Shown piece after piece: positions 14,637-18,257 of a stretch of 33,951 nucleotides of DNA (its first letter is position 1; each line of letters begins with the position of its first letter). The stretch lies in NCBI GenBank assembly GCA_007692545.1, contig REBV01000126.1, positions 1 through 33,951 of the forward strand, in the 5' to 3' direction. The notes below the pieces were generated by a model that had not been told where the DNA came from, searched no databases, and saw only the letters and a list, made by a program, of their open reading frames with translations. The position numbers and the translations under genes were made by a program. This DNA comes from Puniceicoccaceae bacterium. GTDB lineage: Bacteria; Verrucomicrobiota; Verrucomicrobiia; Opitutales; Coraliomargaritaceae.

Positions 14637-14664
14637 AAAAAGGCCACCCTGACGGGTGGCCTTT
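14636..14664 (-). terminator. Original tRNA-Tyr terminator, displaced by the integrated element
   Basis: On the minus strand AAAGGCCACCC-GTCA-GGGTGGCCTTT forms an 11-bp perfect stem with a 4-nt loop, followed by six Ts. It lies directly after the displaced tRNA-Tyr tail at 14661-14693, so before integration it would have ended the tRNA-Tyr transcript. Confidence 0.75.
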
Positions 14665-14693
14665 AAATGGTGGTGGGAGCCGGATTCGAACCA
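14661..14693. other. attL (33-bp direct repeat, tRNA-Tyr 3' end)
   Basis: Reads CTTTAAATGGTGGTGGGAGC then CGGATTCGAACCA, identical to 18184-18216. Similarity ends at 14694 (T) against 18217 (G) and at 14660 (G) against 18183 (T). Confidence 0.9.
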
Positions 14694-14878
14694 TCTCGCA
14701 TAAAGAAGCAAGCGCTTCTAAGTCAGCGACTAACGAAACCCAAGAAAGTGCTTGGACTGCTATAGGGACTGATCCTGCGCTAAAGCTAGTCAACAAGGCA
14801 TGGCCTGAGCTATCCGAAACGCTCAAGGCGGCAATTCTGCTGATAGCTGAGTCAGCAAAGAAGAAAGGCTCTGACTAA
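14694..14878 (+). other. Stranded C-terminal tail of the integrase reading frame
   Basis: This segment has no sensible start of its own. It continues in frame from the att core (N-G-G-G-S-R-I-R-T in both copies) and encodes 61 residues to a TAA at 14876-14878. It contains SAWTAIGTDPAL and NKAWPELSETLKAAILLIAE. The second phrase resembles C-terminal ends of tyrosine integrases I associate with Planctomycetota and Verrucomicrobiota (from memory, unchecked). In the circular element it would be joined to residue 434 of the integrase at 16914, giving a 495-residue protein. The frame is open upstream to 14519, but that part overlaps repeats and is not thought to be coding. Confidence 0.75.
14753..14771 (+). 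repeat. 19-bp direct repeat near attL (possible integrase arm site)
   Basis: TGGACTGCTATAGGGACTG matches 18033-18051 with two C/T differences. The copies lie about 60 bp inside attL and about 130 bp inside attR. In translation both give W-T-A-I-G-T. They may be arm-type integrase binding sites or the remains of a duplicated coding segment. Confidence 0.6.
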
Positions 14879-15063
14879 TGCGTCAGCCTGTTCATATCTC
14901 CAAGGTTTTGTGGAGGCTTGGGACTCGTGGGGCTGGAACGGTGCGCGAAGCGCATTGCTTAGCGACAGCGGCCCGGATGACGCAGTCATCAATCTCGCGG
15001 GCAAGCAAAGTGGAAGGGGGCCCCGCGCCGATTGGAAAGGACGGTTCAAAATGGCCGACTTAG
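14878..15063 (+). CDS. Possible small gene between integrase tail and rep
   Basis: A 61-codon frame starts at an ATG that overlaps the TAA ending the integrase tail (TAATG) and ends at 15061-15063, overlapping the start of rep at 15051 by 13 bp. The packing argues for a translated gene linking int (in the circle) to rep. The product (MRQPVHISKVLWRLGTRGAG at the N terminus) matches nothing I recognise and its composition is Arg/Ser/Ala-rich, which is also what non-coding GC-rich sequence gives. The same 172 bp (14879-15050) could instead be the rolling-circle origin region. Confidence 0.3.
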   Translation: MRQPVHISKVLWRLGTRGAGTVREAHCLATAARMTQSSISRASKVEGGPAPIGKDGSKWPT

Positions 15064-16372: not shown

Positions 16373-16373
16373 T

Positions 16374-16730
16374 ATGGACAACGAATACGAATCAAACATA
16401 CCACCCGAAATCGAAGACGATGAGACTCTCACCGAGCCTCTAAGCCCTTCAGAACTGCTCGACAAAGCACTTAACATAATGCCCGGGGGGGAGTTGCTTC
16501 CTTACCTCACGACCATAATTTATTTACGGGATCATAAAAAATACAGCTGGAGGGGAGTTGCGACATGGTTGAAAGAGAATGGCAATATAGAAACTAGTCA
16601 TACAACCGTATGTAATTTCTATAAGTATGTTCACAATCATCCTAACTATCGGCATGATCTCTTAGAAGCAGAAGAAGAGCTAAAAGAAATGCTTGTTGAG
16701 GGATACTTGAATCAACATGAACTCCAATAA
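16374..16730 (+). CDS. Putative helix-turn-helix protein of the element
   Basis: A 118-residue acidic protein starting at the ATG at 16374 (MDNEYESNIPPEIEDDETLT). A TTG at 16338 would add 12 residues but falls in the repeat/promoter region. Residues 55-85, YSWRGVATWLKENGNIETSH then TTVCNFYKYV, look like a helix-turn-helix of the kind found in small plasmid and phage regulators (S/T-W-R-x-[IV]-A-x-[WF]-L ... V-S-H-T-T-V). The C terminus is a charged helix. A regulatory or copy-control role is inferred. Its 3' end overlaps the AlpA-type gene by 14 bp, so the two and int are probably translated together. Confidence 0.6.
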   Translation: MDNEYESNIPPEIEDDETLTEPLSPSELLDKALNIMPGGELLPYLTTIIYLRDHKKYSWRGVATWLKENGNIETSHTTVCNFYKYVHNHPNYRHDLLEAEEELKEMLVEGYLNQHELQ

Positions 16731-16917
16731 TCAGGATAGATTGTTGACGGTACAGGATGTTGCAGAAAGGCTGAGCCTTTCGGTTCGTGCTGTATACCGA
16801 CTAATTGCAGAAAAGCAACTGCCTCAACCTGTAAAGCTAGGGCGTGCATCTCGGTTATATACGAGTGATATTTCAAGGTATCTTGACAGTTTGAGAAACC
16901 AGAGGGGTAGACAATGA
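16717..16917 (+). CDS. AlpA/excisionase-family DNA-binding protein
   Basis: A 66-residue protein with a MerR-like winged helix of the AlpA/excisionase type: LLTVQDVAERLSLSVRAVYR, LIAEKQLPQPVKLGRASRLY, then the DISRYLDSL helix. Members next to a tyrosine integrase act as recombination directionality factors or as activators of the integrase gene. It overlaps the upstream gene by 14 bp, and its stop overlaps the integrase ATG (ATGA), indicating coupled translation. It is the best candidate to favour excision of this element. Confidence 0.82.
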   Translation: MNSNNQDRLLTVQDVAERLSLSVRAVYRLIAEKQLPQPVKLGRASRLYTSDISRYLDSLRNQRGRQ

Positions 16918-18257
16918 GAGTTGATAAACGCAAACGCCGCAAAAACGGGAAACTCGTTGAGGATCTTAATTACACCGGATTCTTCCGCCTTCCTTGGGAA
17001 TTCAAAGCGCGTAGCGTTTCCATGAACACGCCTGACAAGCAGACAGCCGAAAAATGGCTGAAAGAATACATCACCGTCCAGCATCGTATTCATGCGGGAG
17101 ACGAAGTGCCTGCTTATCTCTGGGGCGCTCCAAAGAAGGAACTCCCTGCCCTGCTCGCCGAATACCTTGGAAGCCTCCAATCCAAAGAACGGGGGCAGAA
17201 GCATATTGACGGTGTGCGCGTCCATATCGAGCGGCTTATTAAGGAATGCAGTTGGCCGACTGCTGACGCGATCTCGCAACGCTCTTTTGAAAGCTGGCTT
17301 GCCAGCAATCCCCAGAGCCTACGAACCCAGAAACCACTCTCAGCCAAAACGAAGAAGGAATACCAGAGTGACGCGCAAGCCTTCTCGACCTGGCTCGTTC
17401 ACTGCCGGGTGCTCAAGGAAAATCCCCTCGAATACCTCAAGCCAATTACGACCAAGGGCAAAGAGACGAAGCGCCGCGGCCTATGGACTTTGGACATTCT
17501 AAAAAAGTTCTTGTCAGTACCAACCGGGGGCGCGGTCGATTATCGCTCTGCGGTATTCCTGCTGTTCAAGACTTCGATCCGTAAAAGCTCTTTGCAGGGT
17601 CTCAAATGGGCTGACGTCCATATCGACATAGAGCGGCCCTACATCGAGCTACAGGCCAGCAATAACAAGACCAAGGATAAGTTGATACGGCATATCGATA
17701 AAGAAACCTGCGCTTTCCTGCGCTCAATGCGGCCCCAAGACGTCAAGGCTGCTGAGCCGGTCCTTGATTACAAAATCCCTAACTCGACACGCCTCCGCAA
17801 AGACCTCGAAGCGCTCGGCATCGAATATTGGACTGAAATTGGCGATTTAGACTTCCACGCCCTGCGCCATACCTCGGCAACCATGTTTGCGGCCAATGGT
17901 GCCCCGACTTCCATCCGTCAAAAGCTTCTAGGCCACAAGACAAGCGCCATGACGGACCGTTACACGATTGACAGCGGGATCAACGTAGCGGCTGAACTCG
18001 AAAAAATGGAGCCCGTTTACAGTGCTGAAGAGTGGACCGCTATAGGGACCGTTTCGCCAGACTTTTCGGGTCATTTTGAGTCACCAGCAGACACAGAGGG
18101 AAGCAACCCCCCATCGAGCGCCAGCCCGCTCTCTGTCACGTCTGGACACGAAAAGGCCCCTCCAGTCTTGGAGAGGCCTTTATCTTTAAATGGTGGTGGG
18201 AGCCGGATTCGAACCAGCGAACTCAAAGAGAACAGATTTACAGTCTGCGTGCTTTAG
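16914..18257 (+). CDS. Tyrosine recombinase/integrase reading into attR and tRNA-Tyr
   Basis: This 447-residue site-specific recombinase has a core-binding domain at about 75-180 and a catalytic domain at about 190-360. The catalytic residues are Arg223 (FKTSIRKSSLQGLKW), His315 and Arg318 (DFHALRHTSATMFAANG), His341 (LLGHKTSAM) and the nucleophile Tyr350 (TDRYT). The frame then passes through a linker, the terminator-forming sequence at 18152, the 33-bp att core (NGGGSRIRT, residues 426-434) and 13 codons complementary to the tRNA-Tyr before stopping. In the circular form the last 13 residues would be replaced by the 61 residues encoded at 14694-14878. It is translationally coupled to the AlpA-type gene. 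Confidence 0.92.
   Translation: MRVDKRKRRKNGKLVEDLNYTGFFRLPWEFKARSVSMNTPDKQTAEKWLKEYITVQHRIHAGDEVPAYLWGAPKKELPALLAEYLGSLQSKERGQKHIDGVRVHIERLIKECSWPTADAISQRSFESWLASNPQSLRTQKPLSAKTKKEYQSDAQAFSTWLVHCRVLKENPLEYLKPITTKGKETKRRGLWTLDILKKFLSVPTGGAVDYRSAVFLLFKTSIRKSSLQGLKWADVHIDIERPYIELQASNNKTKDKLIRHIDKETCAFLRSMRPQDVKAAEPVLDYKIPNSTRLRKDLEALGIEYWTEIGDLDFHALRHTSATMFAANGAPTSIRQKLLGHKTSAMTDRYTIDSGINVAAELEKMEPVYSAEEWTAIGTVSPDFSGHFESPADTEGSNPPSSASPLSVTSGHEKAPPVLERPLSLNGGGSRIRTSELKENRFTVCVL
18033..18051 (+). repeat. 19-bp direct repeat near attR (possible integrase arm site)
   Basis: TGGACCGCTATAGGGACCG, partner of 14753-14771 with two C/T differences. It lies inside the integrase gene after the catalytic domain. 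Confidence 0.6.
18152..18181 (-). terminator. Element-supplied terminator for tRNA-Tyr
   Basis: On the minus strand AAAGGCC-T-CTCCA pairs with TGGAG-G-GGCCTTT over 13 positions with one mismatch and a 4-nt loop, followed by TTTTC. It begins about 10 bp after the CCA of the intact tRNA-Tyr. It replaces the original terminator now displaced to 14636-14664, although the sequences differ in the hairpin. Confidence 0.7.
18184..18216. other. attR (33-bp direct repeat inside tRNA-Tyr and integrase gene)
   Basis: Identical to 14661-14693. It covers the last 26 nt of tRNA-Tyr (with CCA) and 7 bp downstream, and is also translated as part of the integrase frame. Confidence 0.9.

Follow-up and report, generated by a model that had tools for sequence, protein, structure and literature searches.

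A rolling-circle element of a marine Verrucomicrobium with its insertion site inside its own integrase gene, and an apparent class-wide exchange of a conserved integrase tail upon integration

The stretch of DNA analyzed here (the window; 33,951 nucleotides of contig REBV01000126.1, from a marine Verrucomicrobium) contains a small mobile element whose site of insertion into the chromosome lies within its own integrase gene. The 3.5-kb element (14661-18216) encodes a rolling-circle Rep, two small proteins, an AlpA/HTH_17 protein, and the integrase, and the combination of an HUH Rep, an integrase, and a tRNA att site makes it an integrative rolling-circle element. Judging from sequence comparison, the arrangement is part of a class-wide pattern found in about two dozen related elements, and a swap of the integrase tail on integration is well supported. 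The observations as a whole are probably best explained by a rolling-circle element with attP in int, in which both the tail and rep depend on the integration state. The features of the window are as follows.

14661-14693, plus strand: distal att copy (attL core), matching exactly the 3' end of tRNA-Tyr and 7 further bp
14694-14878, plus strand: displaced integrase 3' end encoding the 61-residue conserved C-terminal tail, in frame after att joining; stop codon TAA at 14876-14878
14753-14771, plus strand: putative right arm-type site (paired heptamers TGGACTG-CTATA-GGGACTG) within the tail coding sequence; direct repeat with 18033-18049, at a similar position in relatives
15051-15989, plus strand: rolling-circle replication initiator (HUH Rep, PF23343, E 1.3e-16); ORF open from GTG 14910
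15905-16210, plus strand: small protein with no family match; homologue in L007, the locus of the closest relative
16374-16730, plus strand: 118-aa protein of unassigned function; L007 homologue at 7582-7944
16717-16917, plus strand: HTH_17/AlpA-like protein, probable excisionase (RDF) (HTH_17 2.8e-10; phrog_66 excisionase 8.3e-9)
16914-18257, plus strand: tyrosine integrase, chromosomal form, 447 aa (PF00589, 1.3e-16)
18033-18051, plus strand: putative left arm-type site (TGGACCG-CTATA-GGGACCG) within the integrase coding sequence
18184-18216, plus strand: proximal att copy (attR core), within the integrase ORF and the tRNA 3' end
18191-18275, minus strand: tRNA-Tyr(GTA), the target gene, left intact

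The 33-bp repeat, CTTTAAATGGTGGTGGGAGCCGGATTCGAACCA, is exact at 14661-14693 and 18184-18216 and covers the 3'-terminal 26 bp of tRNA-Tyr together with the next 7 bp; the sequences flanking the two copies are unrelated on both sides. Both copies read L-N-G-G-G-S-R-I-R-T in the integrase frame, as the original prediction had described. Within the genus, about nine sister genomes have the core contiguous with the tRNA-Tyr end and the host flank. These empty sites support the borders of the element; beyond that, they are evidence of insertion polymorphism only. A partial third att-like copy (14513-14538) was rejected as attL, being shorter and giving a joined frame without the tail.

The surroundings of the two copies should also be described. 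The palindromic repeat at 14421-14485 (AAAGTAGC..CACGCTTCCAGCGTG) has about 30 more matches in the genome, many of them clustered on contig C319, and is a dispersed repeat family. The host flank (14486-14660) contains a second, partial tRNA-Tyr 3' end with a terminator, and an inverted tRNA end lies about 100 bp off. The same arrangement is also found in L007 (4133-4329), and a copy of the terminator and tRNA end occurs in another genome (G028, contig C54, 8950-9001), in which no related integrase was found, indicating that it belongs to the host, perhaps as a scar or as a repeat derived from a tRNA. On the other side, the integrase coding sequence just before the core (18140-18183) contains an inverted repeat seen by eye (AAAGGCCCCTCCA..TTGGAGAGGCCTTT), which could act as a substitute terminator for tRNA-Tyr on the minus strand; the terminator scan did not call it.

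In the chromosome, the last 13 codons of the integrase are the antisense of the host tRNA-Tyr gene. When the two att copies are joined in a deduced circle, the integrase becomes 495 aa long and shares 434 residues with the chromosomal form. After these residues, the sequence continues with SELKENRFTVCVL in the chromosome versus the 61-residue ISHKE...KKKGSD in the deduced circle, exactly the lengths predicted beforehand. The window tail scores 34.8 bits in the integrase frame against a tail profile built by leave-one-out. The enzyme is a tyrosine recombinase by PF00589 (1.3e-16), the only family above the cut-off in the Pfam scan, and by the invariant R, HxLR, H, and Y columns in the family alignment. 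The position of the exchange point should be noted: it lies about 80 residues past the catalytic tyrosine, and the 447-aa form retains the entire catalytic domain. The tail matched no known domain in Pfam or NCBIfam. Searches of phage, plasmid, and viral collections gave no relatives of the window integrase or distant ones only, and the exact attP/attL pattern of the element was absent from the viral contigs searched. In the joined gene, the N-terminal and catalytic domains would be followed by a flexible linker, whose codons also serve as the recombination site, and then by a conserved two-helix tail. By sequence comparison, integration swaps this tail for antisense host tRNA-Tyr residues and leaves the end carrying the tail and rep at the far side of the element.

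The closest relative, in Coraliomargarita sp. SDUM461004 (L007/L036), has an integrase about 82% identical that also runs into tRNA-Tyr. It has its own att pair of 26 bp, with copies 5,084 bp apart. Once these are joined, the integrase frame runs through ...NGGESRIRT into ISQNKTN...SAWDSLPHSLKAAILLIVESSEQKGSDV, which is homologous to the tail of the window. In the chromosome of this relative, a stop codon is found immediately before the core and the tail motif has no start codon ahead of it, so that the tail is translatable there only as the end of the integrase. This observation bears on the possibility that the integrated element supplies the tail separately from the attL side, through an ORF starting in host DNA. 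An ATG at 14519 in the window does open a 119-aa frame through the tail, but the situation in L007, together with six of the 25 tail-positive elements below that lack any start codon ahead of the tail motif, makes a separately made tail extremely unlikely. The integrase of another relative (L008/L037, about 67% identity) also runs into tRNA-Tyr; its attL was not found on its contig. Cargo varies among these relatives: L007 carries a 431-aa protein of unassigned function (6156-7451), and L008 (4450-6509) carries a 462-aa protein with an HEYSH motif and a RadC-like protein.

Relatives were gathered by searches of the order and the class, with one genome per species and species drawn evenly from larger groups. 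These searches gave 87 related integrase ORFs in Verrucomicrobia, 66 of which run antisense into a tRNA gene. Distal att copies were picked by repeat score alone, independently of the tail, and the tail profile for each test was built without the tested element and its close kin. The conserved tail appeared in the integrase frame in 25 of the 29 att-joined ORFs, the window included (28-66 bits), and the other two frames gave no comparable score, the highest being 14 bits (L063). The tail is absent in every tRNA-overlapping chromosomal integrase. The 25 tail-positive elements occupy tRNA genes of 12 kinds (Tyr, Glu, Ser, Met, Lys, Asn, Pro, Leu, Asp, Cys, Val, and Ala), use all three antisense T-loop frames, and have att copies 2.5 to 36.6 kb apart. 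In L136, the tail is in frame if the crossover lies in the T-loop half of the core (a 2-bp offset within the core). Three att pairs (L050, L051, and L075) have no recognizable tail, and the tail of L070 is divergent. For many of the 66 tRNA-overlapping integrases, attL is off the contig or was not found, and these neither support nor oppose the pattern.

The proposal that the att site lies inside the integrase coding sequence and that integration exchanges the C terminus is supported by these joined ORFs, and the tail, originally called family-like, proves to be conserved and homologous across relatives. An integrase ending before the core or a core in another frame, named at the outset as the refuting case, is not what the great majority of relatives show. 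The tail stays in frame in nearly all elements despite the changing target tRNA, which argues that its presence, at least in the circle, is selected. A single element could show this arrangement by luck, but a chance alignment of repeat and reading frames is refuted by 25 cases at many tRNA genes with the same homologous in-frame tail, and its probability is practically nil. The expectation of a shorter or altered integrase after integration held for the alteration, namely the loss of the tail, and not always for the length: in L112 and L134, the chromosomal form gains 51-61 codons of host sequence past the core. The constant is therefore the loss of the conserved tail, not length. In the integrase tree, the trait occurs on most major branches without clear clustering; a single gain is rejected on this ground, and the scatter means that the origin cannot be dated.

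Complex arrangements were seen at some loci. In L068 (15371-18281), related integrases stand in tandem by tRNA-Met, and in the first ORF (499 aa) a core-like KLGATGFEG is followed by the tail. In L063 (9826-18467, reverse strand), a tandem lies by tRNA-Asn, and the outer integrase reads out of frame into the end of the inner element. Two contigs of one genome (G094; C54 and C55, L153 and L154) both break within the integrase at an arm-like repeat (..CTPNCTP), which suggests several element copies or states that the assembler left unresolved.

The original prediction pointed to unintegrated relatives as a check, and two IMG/VR contigs (L176 and L239), neither classed as circular, indeed have the tail contiguous in uninterrupted integrase-core-tail ORFs. 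The L176 ORF (533 aa) reads a T-arm-like core, GTAGGACTTGAACCTACGG, and then the tail, with a 21-bp repeat on either side of the core. The L239 ORF (550 aa) likewise has repeats on either side of its apparent core (2505-2560), which corresponds to the 5' half and anticodon arm of a tRNA in the sense orientation (peptide VAQLDRASVFGTE), a tRNA sublocation unlike that in all other elements of this analysis. The tail scores are lower (19.7 and 32.4 bits, respectively), and the two cores are presumably true attP sites. The Rep profile is absent from both contigs, and the tail arrangement is thus not confined to Rep-bearing elements. L176 also contains a 2.3-kb direct duplication (98.7%; 4294-6581 and 11619-13906) flanking the integrase region.

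The att site appears to serve as coding sequence over its whole length, with a left arm site, the tRNA-derived core, and a right arm site all inside the integrase 3' coding region, though the arm sites are putative. In 23 of 26 elements (the exceptions being L007, L113, and L046x), the longest repeat common to the 5' and 3' sides of the core is reached by at most 4% of shuffles. These repeats lie mostly at about −130 to −160 and +30 to +78 from the core, and many are paired short motifs about 12 bp apart; they resemble arm sites. Protein-level duplication was rejected as the source of the corresponding peptide repeats (WTAIGT and others), since the DNA copies in L176 read in different frames. 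The repeat is thus kept as DNA, as expected of integrase arm sites.

Simple pairwise estimates of dN/dS, for which dS is partly saturated, are 0.36, 0.26, and 0.27 for the last 40 residues in three pairs, compared with 0.51-0.80 in the linker before the core and 0.06-0.20 in the body where estimable, suggesting that the last 40 tail residues are under purifying selection. Synonymous divergence in the window pair is 0.58 in the linker and 0.63 in the tail versus 1.46 in the body, and the lower values appear consistent with constraint at the DNA level. The L and W columns of the tail are invariant in a ten-sequence alignment. In the AlphaFold model of L176, residues 380-494 form a disordered linker and residues 494-518 form a helical hairpin at moderate confidence; the tail is accordingly predicted to be a two-helix hairpin.

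Because the exchange leaves a complete catalytic domain upstream, loss of the tail might have no effect, might inhibit excision, or might matter for integration alone. If the loss is neutral, the tail would have a general role in the circle (folding, stability, or Rep coupling), its loss would leave the ability of the integrase unchanged, and attP would merely sit in a disordered linker. The complete catalytic domain and the predicted disorder of the linker favor such an overlap, as do two integrases (L038 and L068a) that have an uninterrupted tail and no tRNA overlap, from which it follows that the tail alone is not a state sensor. Retention of the in-frame tail while the tRNA changes counts against it, without settling whether the loss matters, and we regard a neutral overlap as somewhat unlikely. 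The tail might instead destabilize the circle form, with integration stabilizing the enzyme. Such logic is known from integration-dependent phage immunity, where attP lies in the repressor gene and some proteins carry ssrA-like tags (PMC8092301). However, what is conserved here is a two-helix motif inside the tail, with W and L invariant, and the extreme tail ends vary and are mostly not -AA, making a degradation signal very unlikely.

In the deduced circle, rep lies directly downstream of the integrase. In each of the ten relatives tested in addition to the window, the large gene directly following the tail encodes a PF23343 Rep (two of the ten score below the curated cut-off), and matches to the RepSA profile among these elements are weak. 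The next large ORF starts −26 to +34 nt from the tail stop in 16 of 26 joined forms, with an ATGA overlap of the stop in five (L047, L054, L059, L128, and L142). The L007 junction reads GATGTCTAA, and in the window 172 nt separate the tail stop from the Rep ATG. Starts so close to or overlapping the tail stop make most sense if the tail is translated. A simple scan for one sigma type, which leaves room for a promoter of another type before rep, detected one promoter-like sequence on the plus strand, at 16287, ahead of the genes that lead into int, and no plus-strand site before rep. Circularization thus probably restores both the full integrase and an int-rep operon, which integration would break. 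This placement of rep, which the original prediction did not mention, is a further effect of the integration state, additional to the enzymatic switch, equally testable, and supported at least as well.

Integrative elements of actinomycetes, e.g., pSAM2, also combine Rep, Xis, Int, and a tRNA target, in the order rep-xis-int with attP after int. The window element differs in having attP within int and rep behind int in the circle. In archaeal SSV-type ("suicidal") integrases (SSV1, pTN3, and pT26-2), integration splits the gene into Int(N) and a catalytic Int(C), and no intact enzyme remains (PMC8371274). The likeness is that att lies within the integrase gene and that integration alters the gene; the difference is that the window family, in bacteria, exchanges only a post-catalytic tail. 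The catalytic domain of the window integrase is not separated, and the Pfam scan found no PF16795 (Phage_integr_3) in it. Tail loss might still inactivate Int and make integration one-way unless an intact copy acts in trans, as proposed for the archaeal type. The shared principle (PMC8371274) points that way, and the tandem arrays of L063 and L068 could supply an intact form. The archaeal split, however, separates the catalytic domain, whereas here the whole domain stays with its own upstream region and a probable excisionase gene adjoins the integrase. Inactivation is therefore quite unlikely.

Other systems resemble the window element in part. In integration-dependent immunity, attP lies in a repressor gene with a removable C-terminal degradation signal (Broussard et al. 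2013, as cited in PMC8092301). As far as that citation describes it, attP is inside a coding gene in both cases, but the gene is a repressor with a degradation tail there and a recombinase with a helical-motif tail here; family and profile scans identified no repressor as such in the window element, and attP sits in int. In the haloarchaeal pleolipovirus SNJ2, circularization joins int to the replication operon across attP, with a new ORF over the junction, and experiments show that a circularization-dependent operon can control replication (PMC13107129). Joining of int to replication genes across attP is common to SNJ2 and, as deduced, the window element, while in SNJ2 the junction ORF (orf26) is separate from int and the Rep family and the domain of life are different. 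In ICEKp1, the int promoter switches with the integration state (PMC13023037); there too the state alters integrase output and favors integration, but by acting on transcription and not on protein sequence. We found no description of bacterial integrases exchanging a conserved tail in the openly licensed literature, though att cores close to the 3' end of int may well have been reported in older phage papers.

The circle would carry xis, int, and rep as one operon, from which full-length Int and Rep would be made together. In the chromosome, tail-less Int would be made and Rep lowered, leaving the integrated state replicatively quiet. In the scenario that we consider most likely, the tail would promote integrative synapsis, and excision could still be carried out by tail-less Int together with the AlpA-like excisionase. 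The tail swap would then bias the element toward staying integrated until Xis is made. The functional switch between integration and excision competence suggested originally remains a hypothesis, though a reasonable one. More broadly, and tentatively, we envisage a bacterial, class-wide integrase family that rewrites its own C terminus at each integration and excision, with the site as linker, the tail as a state-specific regulatory module, and the joining licensing rolling-circle replication through the int-rep operon.

Self-disrupting integrases were described as exclusively archaeal in a 2021 review (PMC8371274). Bacterial integrases across a class of Verrucomicrobia that have attP in the coding sequence and lose a selected tail run against this view (PMC8371274). 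A single recombination event would set both the form of the recombinase and replication, which is a compact arrangement. Integrases mined from integrated elements would be tail-less and may integrate poorly, and genome annotation will routinely end such integrases in antisense-tRNA residues, missing the true C terminus.
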